Translations under genes and position numbers: made by a program | Assembly (NCBI GenBank): GCA_947460385.1 | Contig: CANHGT010000009.1 | Span: 1 to 32,534, forward strand | DNA length: 32,534 nucleotides | Direction: 5' to 3' | Source of the DNA: Alphaproteobacteria bacterium | GTDB lineage: Bacteria > Pseudomonadota > Alphaproteobacteria > WRAU01 > Hepatincolaceae | Notes under the pieces: generated by a model | The model's database searches: none | What the model was told of the DNA's origin: nothing | Seen by the model: the letters and a program-made list of their open reading frames with translations, nothing else | Part shown: piece after piece, positions 2,013 through 32,534 of the stretch | Layout of the letters: every line of letters begins with the position of its first letter | Position numbering within the stretch: the stretch's first letter is position 1

Positions 2013-3026
2013 ATGACTAACAAAATAATAAAACGTTATATATATTATTATTTAACTAGTTTTGTTATTTGTACTCCTTTATTGTCCTCTATATATCGTT
2101 ATTTTAGTTATAAAAAAAATTTAAAAATTCTTTTTGCCTTAAAACAACAATACGTTGTTGATAATACTATAGATATGCACCCTAAATTAGATGAATATTT
2201 ACACCTATATGCTAAATTTATTATTATGAATGATTACCATTCTATAATTAAATTAAGAAAATTACACAAACCTTTGTTAAGAATAAGTGATGGTGAAATT
2301 TTTGCTTTTTTAGGTGGGAAAGCTATATCTTGCGTTCAAAACAATAGCGACGCCTTATCTATTGCACTGGCTAATGTATATACTAATAAAAATATTGTAC
2401 TAGGGTTGTTAAAACCATCATTGTCATATATAAATTTAATACGTTATATTAATGAAGCATTATTAGTGTCTGAACCTAAATTTAAAGAATTGTTAGATAT
2501 TATTGCTAAAAATAAGAACATTTATTATTCTGCTTTTGTGAATAGACCAAATAAAATATATGGATTTTTATTGTGGAAAAAAATATGGCAAAATAAAATA
2601 TATGGATTTTTATTGTGGAAAAAAATATGGCAAAATAAAAATGTTTGTATTATTACAGGCAAAGATGGTAACAATGGTAATTTTGATGTTTCTCCATTAT
2701 TTAACAATGTAAAATCTTTAAGTTCTATAGAAATTCCACCTACCAATGTTTTTCTTGAATATGAAAGTATTTTAAAAAAAGCACTAACATTTCCTAAAGA
2801 CACAATTTTTCTTTTAGGCATGGGTTCTACTGCAAAAATAATGCTTGTAGATTTATATAATAATGGTTATAAGGGTTTTGACATTGGGCAAATAGTATCC
2901 CAATGTAATTTTGCCATTGGAATTAATAAAGAACAACCCGAATATATATTAAGACGTATATCAGATAAAAAAGCTTTTTTTCAAGAAGAGCGTAACAGAT
3001 TACTAGCAAGTAACATTAAATTATAG
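2013..3026 (+). CDS. GT-D fold glycosyltransferase (DUF1792-type), with internal 14-residue duplication
   Basis: I assign this 337-residue protein to the GT-D glycosyltransferases from two hallmarks. One is LLRISDGEIFAFLGG at 88-102, whose D93-x-E95 corresponds to the metal-binding DxE of the 'R-x-GDGE' motif. The other is the C-terminal LLGMGSTAKIMLVDLYNNGY followed by GFDIGQI, matching the family's 'G...A..L...G....DIG' ending. Such enzymes add sugars to surface glycans or glycoproteins; donor and acceptor here are unknown. Residues 9-28 are hydrophobic and could anchor the N-terminus in the membrane. The segment NKIYGFLLWKKIWQ occurs twice in tandem (about residues 180-207), encoded by two identical 42-bp units, an unusual recent insertion that keeps the frame. 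There is no clear Shine-Dalgarno. It sits 13 bases after tRNA-Gly. Confidence 0.7.
   Translation: MTNKIIKRYIYYYLTSFVICTPLLSSIYRYFSYKKNLKILFALKQQYVVDNTIDMHPKLDEYLHLYAKFIIMNDYHSIIKLRKLHKPLLRISDGEIFAFLGGKAISCVQNNSDALSIALANVYTNKNIVLGLLKPSLSYINLIRYINEALLVSEPKFKELLDIIAKNKNIYYSAFVNRPNKIYGFLLWKKIWQNKIYGFLLWKKIWQNKNVCIITGKDGNNGNFDVSPLFNNVKSLSSIEIPPTNVFLEYESILKKALTFPKDTIFLLGMGSTAKIMLVDLYNNGYKGFDIGQIVSQCNFAIGINKEQPEYILRRISDKKAFFQEERNRLLASNIKL
2549..2632 (+). repeat. Perfect 42-bp tandem duplication inside the GT-D gene
   Basis: Bases 2549-2590 and 2591-2632 are identical over all 42 positions, and a third, 8-base start of the unit follows (2633-2640). The unit is 14 codons, so copy number can change without breaking the frame. 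The absence of any silent difference between copies indicates a very recent duplication, or an assembly artefact. Confidence 0.95.
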
Positions 3027-4934: not shown

Positions 4935-6011
4935 TTATTTATCTGCACAAAAATCATTATAATATTTTTTACGTAAATCATTAATAGAGGTCATTTGCTG
5001 ATTCTTTACAACGAACCAGTAATCCCAACCATTAACATTTTTATTCATTATTTTAGTAGCCACTTGATGAATTGAACCTTTAATATCGCTGTTTTGTAAT
5101 TGTAATGATCCATCTAAGTTTATTATAGCTTGATTTTTTTTAATATGATCGTATAAAACATCATTATTATTTAAAAGATTGGCTTCTATTAAATTGCCCA
5201 AAGAAATTCGTTTTGTAATGACAAAGTGTTTGTATTGGATATTTTCCAAGACTTCCGTTTGGTTAATTCTATCTTGAGCTAATTGAAAATAGGCTGAATC
5301 TAATTCTATTCCAATAAAGTGTCTGTTTAACATTTTAGCTACCGCCCCCGTTGTTCCTGTTCCCATAAATGGATCTAAAACAACATGATGTTCTTGTGTG
5401 GTGGCAAGCAATATTCTAATAAGTAGTTCTTGAGGTTTTTGGGTGGGGTGTGCGGTTTGATTATTAATTTTTAGCCTCTCGATACCCGCACAAATGGGAA
5501 TATTCCAGATACTATTCATTTGCTTATCATCATTTAAAATTTTCATAGAATGATAATTAAAACAATATTTAGTTTCTTTAGTTTTGGTTGCCCAAATAAG
5601 CGTTTCATGGGCATTGGTAAATCTAAGCCCTTTAAAATTAGGCATGGGATTAGTTTTTTGCCAAATTATATCATTTAAAATCCAAAAATCTAAATCTTGC
5701 AATATTTTACCTAAACGAAAAATATTATGATAACTACCAATTAGCCAAATACTGCCACTTGGCTTTAATATTCTATGAACCTCTTTTAACCACGAAGTAC
5801 AAAATTCATCATATAAGGCAAAAGAACTAAATTTATCCCACTTGGCATCTTGCACTCCATTTACTTTTGTTCTATCTGGTCTATAAAGTGTGGAATCTAA
5901 TTGCATATTATAGGGAGGGTCTACAAATGCTAAATCTACCGTGTTTGAAGGAATATTTTTCAGTAGTTCTAAGCAATCACCTAATAATAAATTAATTGGT
6001 TTATTTAGCAT
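4935..6011 (-). CDS. ccrM: CcrM-type DNA adenine methyltransferase (GANTC)
   Basis: This is a beta-class N6-adenine methyltransferase. It has the catalytic DPPY motif at D31-Y34 and, later, the AdoMet-binding DPFMGTG at 213-219. Long stretches match Caulobacter CcrM as I remember it: SYHNIFR, FWILNDI, NPMPNFKG, NAHETLIWA, AHPTQKP. The C-terminal CcrM extension, which contacts DNA, is present: EANLL, DGSLQ, GSIHQ and NGWDYW. CcrM methylates GANTC after replication and times cell-cycle transcription, usually with GcrA, which is not in view. I start at ATG 6011, which shares bases with the TAA of the GT2 gene (TAATG) and gives the family's N-terminal length. A TTG at 6032 would add seven residues and has no better ribosome site. 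A dedicated methyltransferase partner restriction enzyme is not seen. Confidence 0.93.
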   Translation of the reverse strand: MLNKPINLLLGDCLELLKNIPSNTVDLAFVDPPYNMQLDSTLYRPDRTKVNGVQDAKWDKFSSFALYDEFCTSWLKEVHRILKPSGSIWLIGSYHNIFRLGKILQDLDFWILNDIIWQKTNPMPNFKGLRFTNAHETLIWATKTKETKYCFNYHSMKILNDDKQMNSIWNIPICAGIERLKINNQTAHPTQKPQELLIRILLATTQEHHVVLDPFMGTGTTGAVAKMLNRHFIGIELDSAYFQLAQDRINQTEVLENIQYKHFVITKRISLGNLIEANLLNNNDVLYDHIKKNQAIINLDGSLQLQNSDIKGSIHQVATKIMNKNVNGWDYWFVVKNQQMTSINDLRKKYYNDFCADK

Positions 6012-7000
6012 TATTTTTTTAATTTCATCCAAATAAAGAAAAATTTATATAGATTGTATTTATTTTTTAATAATAAGTTATATTTGATTTTTTTAAAAGG
6101 CGAAATTTTATATATTGGGTCATCTAAATTAATATAAAACAAAGACTTAGAAGCTAATTGAAAAAATATTTTACGCTGATTATCTTGCTTTTTAAATAAA
6201 TTTAAAAAAGATAGCATGGTTTTTAACGTTTTAATACTATACAGTGCTTTATAGCTATCCCAAACATTATACTTTATTAAGATGTCTTTAGTAAGTTCCA
6301 TAGACTGAATAATATGCTTCGCTTTATCTATATTAAACCCATTTGTCATAATAGAATTAGCCCTTACATGATAAATATACAAATAAGCATTTACAAAGCT
6401 AATATTTGTAGCCAAAATAATAGTGTGCCAAAAAAATGGAATATCTTCATATAATAGACCTTTGGGAAATTCTATATTATAAGATTGTAAAAAGCTCCGT
6501 TGAAATAATTTGTTCCAAGCAGTTACTCCTGAATGTACAACTAATTGTTTATCGCCTATGCTAGAGTATATTGTACTATCAGACAAATTGCGAGATTTAC
6601 TAATATACTGATTATTTGCTACACATTTTTTATAATTAAAAATTATTACATCTGACTTATCTTGAATGCTTTTGTTATAAAGTATTTCATAAGCATTAAG
6701 TTCTAACTCATCATCGGCATCAAAAAAATGAATATACTCTCCTGTAGCTTGCTTCATAGCATTATTACGACTTTGAGATAAACCTTGATTACTTTGATTA
6801 ATAAGCTTAATTCTTGGGTCTAACTGTTGATTGTTTTTTATAATATCAAGAGTGCTGTCGGTAGAACCATCATTTACAATAATAATTTCAATGTCTGATA
6901 AAGTTTGTTTTACAGCACAATCTATAGCTCTTTGAATATATAAATCAACATTATAGGCAGGAATTATGCAGGTGATTTTAGGCGTTTTAATATTAAGCAT
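6011..7000 (-). CDS. Family 2 glycosyltransferase
   Basis: This is a 329-residue inverting GT-A glycosyltransferase, probably building lipopolysaccharide or another surface glycan. Motifs are IIPAYN at the N-terminus, IIIVNDGSTDST, SQSRNNAM, the metal-binding D94-A-D96-D97 in FFDADDEL, then AWNKLFQRSFL and LLYEDIPFFW, typical of the acceptor-side region. The C-terminus is basic and aromatic (FFIWMKLKK), suggesting peripheral membrane contact. I choose ATG at 7000, which overlaps the end of the GT4 gene by eight bases. An in-frame ATG at 7018 would lie further inside the upstream gene. The stop overlaps the ccrM start, so translation is likely coupled. Sugar specificity cannot be read from the sequence. 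Confidence 0.88.
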   Translation of the reverse strand: MLNIKTPKITCIIPAYNVDLYIQRAIDCAVKQTLSDIEIIIVNDGSTDSTLDIIKNNQQLDPRIKLINQSNQGLSQSRNNAMKQATGEYIHFFDADDELELNAYEILYNKSIQDKSDVIIFNYKKCVANNQYISKSRNLSDSTIYSSIGDKQLVVHSGVTAWNKLFQRSFLQSYNIEFPKGLLYEDIPFFWHTIILATNISFVNAYLYIYHVRANSIMTNGFNIDKAKHIIQSMELTKDILIKYNVWDSYKALYSIKTLKTMLSFLNLFKKQDNQRKIFFQLASKSLFYINLDDPIYKISPFKKIKYNLLLKNKYNLYKFFFIWMKLKK

Positions 7001-25665: not shown

Positions 25666-26928
25666 TTAAGGCTCAGACAAGGCATTATTAAAAACCCTTA
25701 AAATAGGTTTCATTATATAACTCATAACCGTTCTTTCTCCTGAAACTATATCTACTTCGGCAACCATACCAGGATAAATAGGTTTACCGCCTCCAAATCC
25801 TTTAGTAGTAGATTCAATTTTTACTGCATAATAAGGCATACGAGTACCTTCATCCATAAAAGTATCACCACTAATATCTACTATATTGCCTTTTAATTGA
25901 CCATAAATAGAAGAATCATATGCTGTAACTTTAATATTAACTTCTTGACCGTTCCATATTCTTCCCCTATCTTGAGGCATAATACTAGCTTCTACTAATA
26001 ACATTTCATTACTTGGAATAATTTCAGCTATTGTTTCACCCGCCTTGATAATACCACCTATTGTATTATACTGCAATGCTTTTACTACTCCATCTACAGG
26101 AGAGACAATATCTGTTCTGCTTACCCTATCCATATTTGCACTAATATTTTCTTTTAGTTTTTCAATTTCAATTAAAGTAGAAGAAAGCTCTGTTTGAATA
26201 TCTACTAACATTTTAGATTTAGACTCATCTAATCTACTCGATGCTTCGCCAATTGATTTTTCAGTACTAATCATTCTATTTTGCAAATCTTCTAAATCTG
26301 TTAATAAGTTTTGGGTTCGTAATCTAGAATCAATCAGTTCTTTTTGTGAACCTGCACCACTTTTAACAATACGTTCTAAAATATCTTGCTGTTCTTTAGT
26401 AAATTGATATTGCAACTGTAAATTTTTAGTTCTAGCTCTTTCTTCTTGCAATTGTAATCTACGCAGATCTATTTGTTGATCTAACACGGAAAGGGAGTTG
26501 TGAAAATTTTCTTTTCTTTGTAAAAATAATTTCTTTTCATTTTCAACTATATTTGGAACTTTTTCAACTATTTCACTAGGAAATTGTATTTCTTCTCCGC
26601 CTACTAATTCTGTTCTTAGGCGTGCTTCTGTGGCCAATTTTGCATACAAATTAATTTGTAATTCGGTTAAACTAGAAAGAGCAAATTCATTTTTAATGCG
26701 GTAAATTAATTGCCCTTCTTTAACTTGTTGCCCCTGCTTTACTGCAATTTCAGATACTATACCACCTTCTAAATGTTGAATTTGCTTAACTTGTCCTGAT
26801 GGAACAATTTTACCTTGACCCCTAACAAATTCACCCACTTTCATTAATGAAGCCCATAAAATAAACACTACAACCATTAAAAATATAGGAAAAGCAAAAA
26901 CCTGATAATGAAACTTACTTAAATTCAT
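25666..26928 (-). CDS. HlyD-family type I secretion periplasmic adaptor
   Basis: The adaptor links the inner-membrane ABC exporter to an outer-membrane TolC-like channel. The 420-residue protein has a short cytoplasmic tail and one membrane helix (about 10-30), then the first lipoyl half (GKIVPSGQVKQIQHLEGGIVSEI, VKQGQQVKEGQLI at about 40-82). A long coiled coil follows (about 95-265, rich in L, Q, E and R), then the second lipoyl half (DIVSPVDGVVKAL), the beta-barrel, and the conserved C-terminal PGMVAEVDIVSGERTVMSYIMKPI. This fits HlyD/LapC closely. GGAG lies five bases before the ATG. It is 15 bases after the ABC gene and just upstream of ybeY. No TolC gene is in view. Confidence 0.94.
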   Translation of the reverse strand: MNLSKFHYQVFAFPIFLMVVVFILWASLMKVGEFVRGQGKIVPSGQVKQIQHLEGGIVSEIAVKQGQQVKEGQLIYRIKNEFALSSLTELQINLYAKLATEARLRTELVGGEEIQFPSEIVEKVPNIVENEKKLFLQRKENFHNSLSVLDQQIDLRRLQLQEERARTKNLQLQYQFTKEQQDILERIVKSGAGSQKELIDSRLRTQNLLTDLEDLQNRMISTEKSIGEASSRLDESKSKMLVDIQTELSSTLIEIEKLKENISANMDRVSRTDIVSPVDGVVKALQYNTIGGIIKAGETIAEIIPSNEMLLVEASIMPQDRGRIWNGQEVNIKVTAYDSSIYGQLKGNIVDISGDTFMDEGTRMPYYAVKIESTTKGFGGGKPIYPGMVAEVDIVSGERTVMSYIMKPILRVFNNALSEP

Positions 26929-26943
26929 AATAACTCCTATCCC

Positions 26944-29112
26944 TTAAACAGTTTTTTTACTTTGCAACATTGCTATAACTTTTTCCTTAGTATCATCTAC
27001 TACAACTGTAGAATTATCTATTAATAGCACCCTCTCTACCAAATTAAGTTGGGTTGGTTTATGTGTAATTAATATAAAGGTTTTATCTACGACATACTTA
27101 CGAATGTTCTCCATAAATGTTGCTTCAAGCGAAGTATCCATTCCATTTGTTGGCTCATCTAACATTAAGATAGGAGGATCCATTAATATTGCCCTAGCTA
27201 ATGCTATAATTTGTTGCTGTCCTCCTGATAAGTTTCTACCCATTTCTTGTACTACCATGTCATCTCCCTTGCCAGATAACGCAGTAATTAGCTTTACCCC
27301 TGCTAAATCACAGGCTTTTTGATATTGTTCTTCTGACACATTAGTACCATTCATCATAATATTTTCCCTTACCGTACCATGAAAAAAGAAAGATTTTTGT
27401 GGCATAAAGCCAACAGAAGAACGTAGCTCACTAATATGAATATTGTTAATATCAATCCCATCTAATTGTACTTCTCCACTATTGTTAAAATCTAGCCCTA
27501 ATAACAAACGAGTAATTGTACTTTTTCCTGCACCTGTTTTACCAATAATTGCTACTTTATCTTTAGCTTTAATTGTAAAACTACACTTATTTAAAATAGG
27601 TTGTTTCATAGAAGGGTAAAAGAAGGTTACATCTTTAAAGGTAATTTCTCCTTTAAATGGTGCCTTTGCTCCATAGTTCTCTGTTTCATCTTCCATAGGA
27701 GAATTAACAATTTTTTCTAAATGACGTAAAGTATTTTGAATAGAGCGATATCTAACTATCAGCCCTGCAAAAGCTATTACTGTACTCATAATTCTAGATA
27801 CAACCGTACTTGAGGCAATAAGACCACCTGTAGTCATTGAATTATTTGATATTTCAAAAACCCCAACCACCACAATAATAATTGTAACTACATTCATAAT
27901 CCACAAAGAGAAATTTGTAGATATATTCACCCATAAGTTATAATTATAATGTGAACGATATGCTTTATCTAAAACTCTACGCCACTTAGATAAAATTTTT
28001 CCAATATAATTAAAAGTTTTAATACTTTCAATTCCTGCAACAGTTTCTATAAGCATTCCATTTTTGTTTTGATCTTCATTTAACATGCCAGCATGATTCT
28101 TCTGCATTGGCACTTGGAAAAAAATATTTGCCATAAAAACTATAAAAGATGCTACAAGTGCTACTAGCAACATAGTGGGAGAAATTACAAACAATAATAT
28201 TAAAAACATAAGTAAGAATGGTAAATCTATTAAGCTTGGAATAAACCGAGAAAAATAAAATTCTCTTACCATAGAGAGTTCTTTAAATAAAGAATTTTTT
28301 GCTCCATTACTTAAATTTAGCCCCGTACCTTTCATGTTTAAAAGCTTACTAAGTAAAACTTGGTCTACCTCATTGCCAATATTTAAAGAAATATAATCGG
28401 TTAAATATGATTTAATAATTTTAAAAATAAAATCAAAAAAATACATAGTTAGCATACCAAAGGCTAGCACCAACAAAGTAGAAATAGCGTAGTTTGGAAC
28501 TATTCTATCATAAACATTCATTGTAAAGAATGGACTTATTAATGCAAATAAACTAATAAAAAAACTAATAACAATAATTTCAACAAATACAACTTTAAAT
28601 TTACCGATAGAACTAAATAAGAAACCTGTACGCCTTAAAAATGAAGATACAGATAAATCTTCTTCATAAAAAAAGATAGTATAGCCTGTATACTGATGAA
28701 CGAAATCCTCTGGTTTGAAAACTTCATCGCTTTGGGTGACAGGATTGTAACCTTCATTATCATCTAATATTGTATAGCTTTGCTTTTTAGACAACAAGGC
28801 TATGCAAGGGCCTGTTTTAATATCTAAAATATTAATTCTACGTAATTCAGCTACAAGACCAATTTTTTGTGCTAATGCCATAATATCTACAGTGCTAATG
28901 CCTAAATTTTCCATTGGCACATTAGAATATAAAATTTCAGGGCTAACTTTCTTATTAAAAGCTTTAATAATTCTTTCAAATGCTAAACGTAACTCTACGC
29001 TAGAACTATCTGAACCTGCATCTTTCATTTCTACCTTAAGTTCTTCTTTAGGTGCAGTAGAAAGGTTAGTAGAAAGATCTTGCTTTATATTCTCATTTTT
29101 GTCGTCTTGCAT
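26944..29112 (-). CDS. Type I secretion ABC transporter (permease-ATPase, LapB/HlyB type)
   Basis: This 722-residue exporter energises one-step secretion of unfolded proteins. It has an acidic N-terminal tail (1-35). A C39-like region follows (about 38-150, STVDIMALAQKIGLVAELR, GPCIALLSKKQSYTIL). It lacks the catalytic cysteine at the start of a true peptidase, so it is a substrate-recognition domain rather than a leader protease. Six membrane helices (about 170-440) precede the ATPase. Walker A is GKTGAGKST from 524, signature LSGGQQQ from 628, Walker B ILMLDE with D652-E653, and H-loop ITHKPT. GGA six bases before the ATG supports the start. A repeat-rich 129-base region separates it from the giant coiled-coil gene. 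Confidence 0.94.
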   Translation of the reverse strand: MQDDKNENIKQDLSTNLSTAPKEELKVEMKDAGSDSSSVELRLAFERIIKAFNKKVSPEILYSNVPMENLGISTVDIMALAQKIGLVAELRRINILDIKTGPCIALLSKKQSYTILDDNEGYNPVTQSDEVFKPEDFVHQYTGYTIFFYEEDLSVSSFLRRTGFLFSSIGKFKVVFVEIIVISFFISLFALISPFFTMNVYDRIVPNYAISTLLVLAFGMLTMYFFDFIFKIIKSYLTDYISLNIGNEVDQVLLSKLLNMKGTGLNLSNGAKNSLFKELSMVREFYFSRFIPSLIDLPFLLMFLILLFVISPTMLLVALVASFIVFMANIFFQVPMQKNHAGMLNEDQNKNGMLIETVAGIESIKTFNYIGKILSKWRRVLDKAYRSHYNYNLWVNISTNFSLWIMNVVTIIIVVVGVFEISNNSMTTGGLIASSTVVSRIMSTVIAFAGLIVRYRSIQNTLRHLEKIVNSPMEDETENYGAKAPFKGEITFKDVTFFYPSMKQPILNKCSFTIKAKDKVAIIGKTGAGKSTITRLLLGLDFNNSGEVQLDGIDINNIHISELRSSVGFMPQKSFFFHGTVRENIMMNGTNVSEEQYQKACDLAGVKLITALSGKGDDMVVQEMGRNLSGGQQQIIALARAILMDPPILMLDEPTNGMDTSLEATFMENIRKYVVDKTFILITHKPTQLNLVERVLLIDNSTVVVDDTKEKVIAMLQSKKTV

Positions 29113-29241: not shown

Positions 29242-32200
29242 TTAATCTTCTTTTTTACTGTCTACTTTCTGATTAATTGCCTGACCAATTTGCTTCATAT
29301 TAGCAAGAATATCTATTTTCTTACCTTGTGGAATTACGGTAGATATTTCACTGTTCATAGATTGAAAAGGTAGTGCTACATCATCTCTCTTAACTACTTT
29401 TTGTTTGCTTTCATATAAGTTTAATAATTTATCAAATTCATTTTTCATAATATTTTCAACATTTTTACTATCTTTAGATAAAGTCTCTTCTAGCTTCTTG
29501 TTACTTAATAACAATGATTCATACTGGCTATTGTAATCTTGCACCACATTATTTAATGTCTGTGAAACATCTTCAATCTTTTTAGCAATACTGACAACTT
29601 CTGCATTGTCTAAAGAATTATCTTTTACTTGCGCACTTTGCAAGTGTAATTTTAAATTCATTAATTCATTTTTTAATGATGAAACCTCATTTTGCTTTTC
29701 ACTAATATCATCAAGAATTGTTTTTAAATCTGATGATTGATTATTACTTGCTAGCAACGACATAATTTCTAATTTAAAACTATTCAAATTGTCATTAATA
29801 TGATCTTCCCTTGATAATAACTTATGCACATTATCAGAAAGCCTAATTAGAATATTGCCATCTATATTGCTTGCAGAATCACTAGATAATTTTTTAAATT
29901 GTTCACCTATGGAAAATAACGTATCCTTCAACTCTATTTGTTGATCTTTAATTTTTTTGATATCTACATTCATTAAATTAAAATCTATGCTTGAATCAAC
30001 TTTGTCCAATTGGTTATACTTGCTGAAAAAATCATTTAACACATTATTTCTAGCATTGATGTTGTTTAACAAATTGTAAATATCTTTCAATAAATCATCA
30101 TAAGATCCACTATTTACATTTTGAAAATTAGATATTTTGTTTAAAACATCTGTTTGTTGCTCTTCTAATTTTGATAAAATAGAAAAATTCTGATTAAATA
30201 AAGTTCGTACATGCTCATTATTTTCAATATTAACATTGCGACTATCTGCAGATGATTCTTTGTATAACGTTATAACTTCTTCTTGATTCTTAATTATATC
30301 TTCCACATTCACAAATAATCTTTTAAAAGATTCTTTTAAATCACTAGATTTCATTGAATAGATTGCTTGGAAGACATCATGTAGTAAACTTTTAGTATCA
30401 TTAGAATCTTGTTGCAGTTTGTGTAAGTAATAAGAAACACTATCAACACTATCTTGTTGCTCTTGCACTGCTTCTAACAGCTTACCATGCACTTCTCTTG
30501 CATTCTCTAGCTCTTCGGTAGTTTTAGTGTAAAAAATATCCTGATTAGACTTCATTTCTGATAATAAAGCAGAGTATAGGCTATCTTGATTAACTAATTT
30601 ACTGGTAAAAGAAACATTTTCATCTACATATAATTGTTGCAGATGATCTGTTTGATTCTTAATATCTAGCAATAATTGATACATATCATGCTTGCTAGAT
30701 TTACCATCACTAATTATATTATTTAATTTTTCTTGCTTATCTTTCAATTCATTAACAGCATTCATAGTATCTATAGATACCACCTCTAATGTCTTACTAG
30801 TTACTTTATTATCTAATTCTTTCAACAAATTATTTTGATAAGATTGTTGCACAGATAAATCTTTTATGTGATGCAACATTTCAGATTGATCATCATTAAA
30901 AGATTTTAAATAGATATCATAGTTTTTTTTTATATCATTCAATATGTTACTGTTGTTATCTTTATCTTGTAATTTATCATTGAGCCTAGCAATGCTATGT
31001 ATAACTTCCAGCAACTGCTTATTGCTATCATTAAATTTATTTAATGAATCTATTTTTAACTCATAACTCAATGATTTCACTTGGTCTAAAATATTATGTA
31101 ACACTTGTTCTTGCTTATCATCTACATTATTGCTATTGCTATTTTCAGAAACCAATGAGTTCATAATTTTATATTGCATAACATCTTTTATAATGCCATC
31201 ATATCCATTTGAATTAGCAGATATAATGTGCGGTGAAACAGAATCATTATTTTTATTAATTAAATTAGAAACCATTAAATTCAACATTACAGACGATAAA
31301 TCATCTTTAGGGCTACTTTTAGCTTCCACTAACTTTTCTATAGCACCCATTAAACTTTTTGTTGTATTATCTTGATCTTTTGTTATTATGCTATTTTTTA
31401 ACCTTTCAATAGAATTGCTTAAAACATTGCTATCTGAATTGTTATCCTTAGAATGTAAACTACTTTTTAATTGAGTCATTTCTTCAAGGAGCTTAGCATA
31501 TTTATCATCTTGTTTATGATTCTGTTCTTTTATATGCTTTAGTTCATTTAACAATAAATCGTACTCTTTGCTAACATGAGGTAAGTTTAATGATGTAGAA
31601 TCAGAATCTTTGCTAATAATTGCTTCTTTGAGGGAATCAATTTTTTCTAATAAATTAACATTGCTGTGAAACTCTTTTAATGATTGCACCTCGTTCTTCA
31701 CATCAACCATAGCTCTATTAATATCTTGATCTAACAAGGTGTTGTCTTTAATCTTTACTGCACTATTATTGCCAGAGATTATATCTTCTAGTTTGGCAAT
31801 ACGGTCTAATAGAACTCTATCATCATTGTGTTGCTTAATATTGTTCAGTTCATTTACAATATTATTATAGGATGCGTCTCTATTAGTAAGTTGATTATCT
31901 ATATTGCTCTTATTAATTTTGTCATGCAATAAGTCAAGCTTCATTTCTAAGTTGTTATGATGCAAACTATTATTAAGCTTGATGTATTCTTGGGAATTAT
32001 CTACAGCAGGCTGAGAGATAACTTCTTTCACTTGTGGAGATACTGACATTGAATACTTATAGGCATCAGATATTTTATCTTTCAGATGTTCTAATTCTTT
32101 AGATATAGATATTAATAAGTCTCTATCATTGTTACGACTGTTTAATGCGTGGCGTAAATCATTTAATTCACTAGCAAATTGAAGATCTACATCTTTTCTG

Positions 32201-32534
32201 TTTAAATCATTAAACAGGCGTACAGCTTGATCGTAATGAGTGCCTGTTGCGGTTTCACTTACTTTATTATTTTGTGATCTATTTTCATAATCATTAGCTA
32301 TTTTGTTTTGTAGATTCTCTAAATTTCTTGTTACATTTAATAATGCTTCTCTATCTCTGCTATAATCTATGTCTCTTCTACTTAATTCTCTACGTACATC
32401 ATTAAGTTCACTCGCAAAATGATTGCCTGAATCTTTATTCATTAATGTACTTACTGTTTGCAATAGTTGATCTTGGGTTAAGCCTACTGGTTGTCTTTCA
32501 TGAAAACTATCCCTGTTTGTATAATCACTTGCTA
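29242..32534 (-). CDS. Giant coiled-coil repeat protein, N-terminal end beyond window
   Basis: I do not recognise the family. The frame stays open to the window edge, so this is a C-terminal fragment of 1096 residues; the TTG at 32463 is internal. It is almost entirely predicted alpha-helical coiled coil (heptads rich in L, I, N, D, S, K, E), with no hydrophobic membrane segment, no cysteine and no tryptophan, and few glycines and prolines. The first visible part has tandem repeats of 80 residues: FASELNDVRRELSRRD and FASELNDLRHALNSRN recur 240 bases apart. More degenerate copies follow (VNELNNIKQHNDDRVLLDRI, LNELKHIKEQNHKQDDKYAK). The C-terminus is basic/acidic mixed (ending KVDSKKED) and lacks RTX glycine-rich nonapeptides. 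It lies upstream of the type I secretion genes. It could be a secreted substrate, an intracellular scaffold or a filament protein. Confidence 0.75.
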   Translation of the reverse strand, partial: ASDYTNRDSFHERQPVGLTQDQLLQTVSTLMNKDSGNHFASELNDVRRELSRRDIDYSRDREALLNVTRNLENLQNKIANDYENRSQNNKVSETATGTHYDQAVRLFNDLNRKDVDLQFASELNDLRHALNSRNNDRDLLISISKELEHLKDKISDAYKYSMSVSPQVKEVISQPAVDNSQEYIKLNNSLHHNNLEMKLDLLHDKINKSNIDNQLTNRDASYNNIVNELNNIKQHNDDRVLLDRIAKLEDIISGNNSAVKIKDNTLLDQDINRAMVDVKNEVQSLKEFHSNVNLLEKIDSLKEAIISKDSDSTSLNLPHVSKEYDLLLNELKHIKEQNHKQDDKYAKLLEEMTQLKSSLHSKDNNSDSNVLSNSIERLKNSIITKDQDNTTKSLMGAIEKLVEAKSSPKDDLSSVMLNLMVSNLINKNNDSVSPHIISANSNGYDGIIKDVMQYKIMNSLVSENSNSNNVDDKQEQVLHNILDQVKSLSYELKIDSLNKFNDSNKQLLEVIHSIARLNDKLQDKDNNSNILNDIKKNYDIYLKSFNDDQSEMLHHIKDLSVQQSYQNNLLKELDNKVTSKTLEVVSIDTMNAVNELKDKQEKLNNIISDGKSSKHDMYQLLLDIKNQTDHLQQLYVDENVSFTSKLVNQDSLYSALLSEMKSNQDIFYTKTTEELENAREVHGKLLEAVQEQQDSVDSVSYYLHKLQQDSNDTKSLLHDVFQAIYSMKSSDLKESFKRLFVNVEDIIKNQEEVITLYKESSADSRNVNIENNEHVRTLFNQNFSILSKLEEQQTDVLNKISNFQNVNSGSYDDLLKDIYNLLNNINARNNVLNDFFSKYNQLDKVDSSIDFNLMNVDIKKIKDQQIELKDTLFSIGEQFKKLSSDSASNIDGNILIRLSDNVHKLLSREDHINDNLNSFKLEIMSLLASNNQSSDLKTILDDISEKQNEVSSLKNELMNLKLHLQSAQVKDNSLDNAEVVSIAKKIEDVSQTLNNVVQDYNSQYESLLLSNKKLEETLSKDSKNVENIMKNEFDKLLNLYESKQKVVKRDDVALPFQSMNSEISTVIPQGKKIDILANMKQIGQAINQKVDSKKED
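32161..32471 (-). repeat. 80-residue (240-bp) tandem repeats at the window-edge end of the giant gene
   Basis: The stretch coding for FASELND starts around 32421 and recurs around 32181, exactly 240 bases apart. Related flanking residues (D-Q-x(5)-LxxKD before it, RD-x-L-L-x3-x-x-L-E-x-L-x-x-K-I after it) are seen in both units. The visible copies are diverged at the DNA level, so they are old. Further copies probably lie upstream of the window edge. Confidence 0.7.

Follow-up and report, generated by a model that had tools for sequence, protein, structure and literature searches.

Why should the gene of a giant coiled-coil protein lie directly before that of a type I secretion exporter in a small Hepatincolaceae genome? 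The question is raised by one end of the stretch of DNA analysed here (hereafter the window), which is the entire contig C9, 32534 bases, of the 1.09-Mb, 66-contig genome G000. The original prediction was that the protein could be an atypical secreted substrate of the exporter or, failing that, a very large cytoplasmic scaffold. The genes concerned are as follows.

29242..32532, reverse strand: 3' part of the gene for a giant coiled-coil protein (1096 residues plus stop)
26944..29112, reverse strand: ABC exporter for type I secretion, LssB-type, 722 aa, whose N-terminal domain is C39-like and degenerate
25666..26928, reverse strand: type I secretion adaptor of the HlyD family, 420 aa (TIGR01843, 345 bits, cut-off 209)

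As predicted, the open frame at 29242-32532 (reverse strand) contains neither Cys nor Trp over its 1096 residues and, because its maximum 19-residue hydropathy is 0.48, no membrane segment. At the frequencies of the other window proteins (Cys 0.81%, Trp 0.74%), zero Cys and zero Trp would arise with chance probabilities of about 1.5e-4 and 3e-4, respectively, for which the reference is ordinary globular proteins. The composition found is that of a coiled coil, with 34% Leu/Lys/Glu/Gln, 22% Asp/Asn, 1.3% Gly and 0.7% Pro. The helical periodicity exceeds that of shuffled sequences (z about 6 at 3.5-3.6 residues) and peaks at about residues 505-840, and AlphaFold2 run on the single sequence also returns, with a low mean pLDDT of 42, a model that is all helix with zero strands, which bears out the predicted coiled coil. 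As this model is too poor, it is not usable for a fold search. Searches of Pfam, NCBIfam and PADLOC with the 1096 residues found no family, a sequence search of the PDB gave nothing significant, and no match to a known cytoplasmic structural family emerged from Pfam, NCBIfam or the PDB sequences. Weak PDB matches to viral spike helices (E 0.1) were rejected as coiled-coil noise. The lack of RTX repeats also holds, for no GGxGxDxUx repeats were found in the 1096 window residues or in the orthologue of genome G001, and PF00353 has no match in the window protein; the 2679-residue orthologue of genome G002 carries a single stray motif. The C-terminus of the window protein is charged and helical, which is not how the RTX-type giants encoded in these genomes end.

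The exporter matches TIGR03375 with an E value of 4e-182, yet under the cut-off of that model, while PF00005 and PF00664 are above theirs. Its C39-like domain scores below the Pfam cut-off (E 0.003) and Cys first appears at residue 103 of the protein; therefore, the domain is likely to be without peptidase activity, which agrees with the non-peptidase N-terminal domain that had been predicted for this neighbour. Past the ABC and HlyD genes, housekeeping genes follow (ybeY, corC, lnt, metK, nusA, infB and pnp, by reading). Two other window genes were noted in passing.

2013-3026, forward strand: SP_1767-family-like glycosyltransferase open reading frame with an in-frame tandem duplication, in which NKIYGFLLWKKIWQ occurs twice
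4935-6032, reverse strand: by reading, an adenine-specific DNA methyltransferase, similar to the CcrM proteins of other alphaproteobacteria

Since the window is the entire contig, the coil gene is truncated by assembly. Completing it with upstream sequence succeeded in part: a search with the N-terminus of the G001 orthologue located the 5' end on another contig of the same genome, and no overlap of that contig with the window end was found.

L045:1-459, contig C51 of G000, reverse strand: coil gene, 5' part

The start of the coil protein on this contig reads MIRRSFLADVNPNSINFADVKKKIESKM. Tandem repeats are usual break points of assemblies, and C51 ends (L045:1-216) in 2.5 copies of an 87-bp unit, repeated perfectly in tandem where the coil gene encodes its N-terminal linker, which would account for the break there; the copy number of this repeat is probably variable. 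We infer the join of C51 to C9 from orthology, from position and from the ending of C51 in a tandem repeat. A low-complexity linker likewise follows the N-terminal peptide in the coil protein of G002. No adhesin gene precedes the coil gene in G000; the gene at that place encodes, by reading, a UDP-galactopyranose mutase.

Four Hepatincolaceae genomes were compared: G000, which contains the window; G001, a single contig of 1,340,442 bases; G002, a termite-gut metagenome-assembled genome; and G003, which is 0.9 Mb and 85% complete. An assembly from the termite Labiotermes has been placed in Hepatincolaceae (PMC11724238). The exporter was found in three of the four genomes, with 60% (G001) and 64% (G002) identity for the orthologues, and in all three a giant coiled-coil gene lies directly upstream, on the same strand in the two orthologous loci.

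L024:9687-13757 (G001), strand of the exporter, directly before it: coil orthologue, 1356 aa
L025:5929-13968 (G002), strand of the exporter, directly before it: coil orthologue, 2679 aa

The gap between the coil and ABC genes is 9 bases in G001, 30 in G002 and 129 in the window. The predicted link to type I secretion is thereby confirmed, homologues of the coil adjoining the ABC-HlyD pair in 3/3 exporter-bearing family genomes. The coil gene stays beside this pair even where the adhesin gene (G000) or the channel and TolC genes (G000 and G002) lie elsewhere. In the 85% of G003 that was assembled, a close exporter orthologue, a MotA-like tail, a giant RTX protein and the coil were all sought and none was found; the best ABC match there to the window exporter is distant, and loss of the system in this genome is likely. 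A coil in a relative that lacks the exporter, which would have told against the predicted link, was thus not seen.

The coil sequence itself diverges fast. For this reason the 1096 residues, when used directly as the query, retrieve no sequence but their own, and orthology rests mainly on position, on the N-terminal peptide and on one inner stretch. The last is an alignment (E 7e-6) of the G001 protein with the window protein around residues 442-490 of the latter (KDxxQYKxxNSL ... SLSxELKI). The N-terminal peptide has 18 invariant residues across the three genomes, including INFADVKK, and contains no signal peptide and no membrane segment; it is the best conserved part of the protein, and the C-terminus is somewhat conserved. 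Two of the three orthologues are free of Cys, and that of G001 has three.

A profile of the N-terminus found only the three family genomes among 385 alphaproteobacterial genomes and G000 only among 399 Pseudomonadota genomes (a sample that partly overlaps the 385), besides two weak matches judged to be chance. These two lie outside the family, with E values of 0.009 and 7e-4; one is to an unrelated 311-aa open reading frame and the other to what reads as the beta chain of phenylalanyl-tRNA synthetase. Exporter loci of non-family alphaproteobacteria were also surveyed: 40 regions were fetched, five in which a longest-ORF filter left no clear exporter frame were set aside, and a coil-like frame occurred within the stretch fetched at none of the remaining 35. 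The gene upstream of the exporter at these 35 loci was RTX-like in five and TolC in 11.

What the exporter carries is suggested by the other genes of the system, which lie in one row in G001 and in separate places in G000 and G002.

G001, single row: MotA-like protein with coiled tail, 1336 aa; MotB-like protein, 369 aa; TolC, 451 aa; RTX-type giant, 3487 aa; then coiled-coil protein, ABC and HlyD
G002, contig C7 (WRAU01000007; L034): MotA-like protein, MotB-like protein and TolC
G002, contig C4 (L025, L027): giant of 3826 aa, coil, ABC and HlyD
G002, contig C4, L048:7664-19099: second RTX-type giant, at least 3812 aa, about 10 kb after the exporter genes
G000, contig C12 (L033): MotA-like protein, MotB-like protein and TolC (PF02321)
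G000, contig C4 (L046): RTX-type giant, 3856 aa

Each of the three genomes thus has an RTX-type giant of 3487-3856 residues. PF00353 is above the Pfam cut-off in both giants of G002, and RTX-like motifs are present in those of G000 and G001. Their C-terminal regions are acidic, and an Asn/Ser/Gly-rich end is common to three of the giants. Judged by these sequence features, the giants are the likely cargo of the exporter, and from the nearness of the second G002 giant to the exporter genes one exporter may serve two adhesins.

Identity to the G000 sequences is 50-57% for the N-terminal parts of the MotA-like proteins and 53-60% for the MotB-like proteins. MotA_ExbB is at or near its Pfam cut-off in the former, whose channel domain also matches the PADLOC models of ZorA (E 5e-11), including ZorA3; a profile search of genome contigs with the MotA-like alignment yielded one locus, in the termite-gut genome. 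The heptad signal is strongest in the coiled tails of the MotA-like proteins (z 23-25 at 3.5), which are about 1000 residues long and, beyond residue 340, contain no Cys and no Trp in a total of 3343 residues. By homology to MotA and ZorA, these tails should be cytoplasmic. The MotB-like partner was modelled from the three aligned sequences as a helix at the N-terminus, a long middle part of low confidence and a domain at the C-terminus, the model confidence of 70-83 applying to this last domain only. The domain matches SiiA (6qvp) with a TM-score by target of 0.75-0.80; the value of 0.80, at 2.9 A, is the highest by target among the top matches, which include OmpA/MotB domains too. The partner is accordingly predicted to be SiiA/MotB-like, with one membrane helix, a linker and a peptidoglycan-binding-type domain. 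It matches none of the ZorB models of PADLOC, and PDB sequence searches with the MotA-like and MotB-like sequences gave nothing significant.

Together, the C39-like ABC exporter, HlyD, TolC, MotA-like channel, SiiA/MotB-like partner and giant cargo candidates make up a system that resembles Sii (SiiA-SiiF) of Salmonella SPI-4. Both have an exporter with a C39-like domain, an HlyD adaptor and a TolC-type pore; a giant non-fimbrial adhesin as the class of cargo; a MotA-like channel protein with a single-helix partner, the predicted domain of the Hepatincolaceae partner matching SiiA; and host contact at a microvilli-bearing epithelium. In Salmonella, SiiF interacts with SiiB, SiiAB controls the retention of SiiE and is dispensable for its secretion, and SiiA is described with the layout modelled here for the MotB-like partner (PMC12607715, PMC6272769). 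The Hepatincolaceae system differs in that its cargo candidates are RTX-type giants, whereas SiiE is a BIg-domain protein, in that its MotA-like protein has a coiled tail of about 1000 residues, and in that the exporter gene is preceded by the gene of an additional giant coiled coil, a free protein. The MotA-like gene belongs to the exporter row in G001 and lies with those of the MotB-like protein and TolC on a separate contig in G000 and G002. ZorA/ZorB of Zorya anti-phage defence likewise have a MotA-like channel whose cytoplasmic tail is long, and the ZorA3 models match the channel domain found here, but the Hepatincolaceae row has TolC and, in G001, an RTX giant, ABC and HlyD, and the rows read have no sign of defence effectors. 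With LapA/LapG systems, the LssB-type exporter and giant RTX-type adhesin are shared; instead of a LapG-type protease, the Hepatincolaceae have the Sii-like channel pair, and PF06035 was found in none of the four family genomes, with a control genome being positive. Channel and exporter also occur together outside the family: the alphaproteobacterium G238 has a Sii-like row with no separate coil.

G238, contig C7, L079: end of an RTX giant, ABC, HlyD, autotransporter-like protein (by reading), MotA-like protein of 579 aa, MotB-like protein of 195 aa and TolC

From this comparison, the coil looks like a family-specific addition.

We propose that the coil is probably a cytoplasmic coiled-coil subunit that serves a Sii-like type I secretion system as scaffold or tether, because it is linked to the exporter in 3/3 genomes, was, like the exporter, not found in G003, and is accompanied in these three genomes by separate cargo candidates. 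The scaffold option of the original prediction is therefore favoured, now as part of this system. Sequence and models establish the parts of the system, their conservation, linkage and co-occurrence, the coiled-coil nature of the protein and the SiiA-like partner. The coil would consist of the conserved N-terminal stretch (INFADVKK), the repeat-bearing low-complexity linker, a very long coiled coil and the charged helical C-terminus. It would work with the LssB-type exporter, HlyD, TolC, the giant RTX-type adhesin as cargo, the MotA/ZorA-like channel and the SiiA/MotB-like partner, binding the exporter on its cytoplasmic side, the coiled tail of the channel, or both, and would thereby gather or position exporters or hold the retained adhesin at the contact of the cell with host microvilli. 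We infer its retention in the cytoplasm, these contacts and its effect on adhesion from the sequences. Retention of SiiE requires an N-terminal coiled-coil domain of its own (PMC6272769), and by analogy it may be speculated that in Hepatincolaceae the coil is supplied in trans.

Could the coil itself be the cargo, i.e., a fibrous protein that is secreted or borne on the surface and has an atypical signal at its C-terminus? Its gene is directly before the exporter gene, a usual place of a substrate gene is upstream of the ABC gene, and several other alphaproteobacteria have an RTX-type substrate gene at this very position; two of three orthologues are without Cys and the C-terminus has some conservation. 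We consider this unlikely. Type I secretion signals sit C-terminally, whereas the coil is conserved best at its N-terminus, and its charged, helical end stands against the acidic ends of the RTX-type giants. The window protein has no RTX repeats, no coil-like frame takes the position in the survey of 35 loci, and a separate class of cargo, the RTX-type giants, is present. The Cys-free composition taken by the original prediction as a trait of secretion substrates is explained by coiled-coil composition; it is no sign of secretion, because the MotA-like tails share it and the G001 orthologue has Cys. The atypical substrate is thus left unsupported, each of the three genomes having better candidates, beside which the coil may be a second cargo.

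Rather improbable is an extension of the scaffold in which coil and MotA-like tails would form a cytoplasmic filament that passes the force of the proton channel to the exporter and pulls or locks the giant adhesins, perhaps at the polar stalk, as a motorised machine of adhesion with a cytoplasmic drive shaft. That the coil would instead be a filament in the cytoplasm that governs shape or polarity of the cell, e.g., of the polar stalk, and merely co-transcribed with the exporter, has a similarly small chance: the Hepatincola pole is drawn out into a stalk between microvilli (PMC9992710) and a giant cytoplasmic coil would suit shape control, but coil and exporter are present or absent together in four genomes, the coil stays beside the exporter while the other genes of the system move, and it has no match to a known cytoskeletal family in Pfam, NCBIfam or the PDB sequences.

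A cytoplasmic subunit of a Sii-like system would suit what is known of these bacteria. Hepatincola cells push a stalk-like pole between the midgut microvilli (PMC9992710), and Hepatincolaceae are described as non-motile and microvilli-associated (PMC11724238), a way of life that fits an adhesion machine. The two Hepatincolaceae genome papers searched name no adhesin, and among open-access papers none beyond the Salmonella reviews was found to link type I secretion, MotA and coiled coils. How a proton channel of the SiiAB type controls a giant adhesin held by its exporter is an open question (PMC12607715). Hepatincolaceae appear to have expanded the cytoplasmic side of their Sii-like system with long channel tails and a separate, exporter-linked coil, which would provide a natural handle on the step that couples channel and adhesin, and the system is a candidate machine for their attachment to microvilli.
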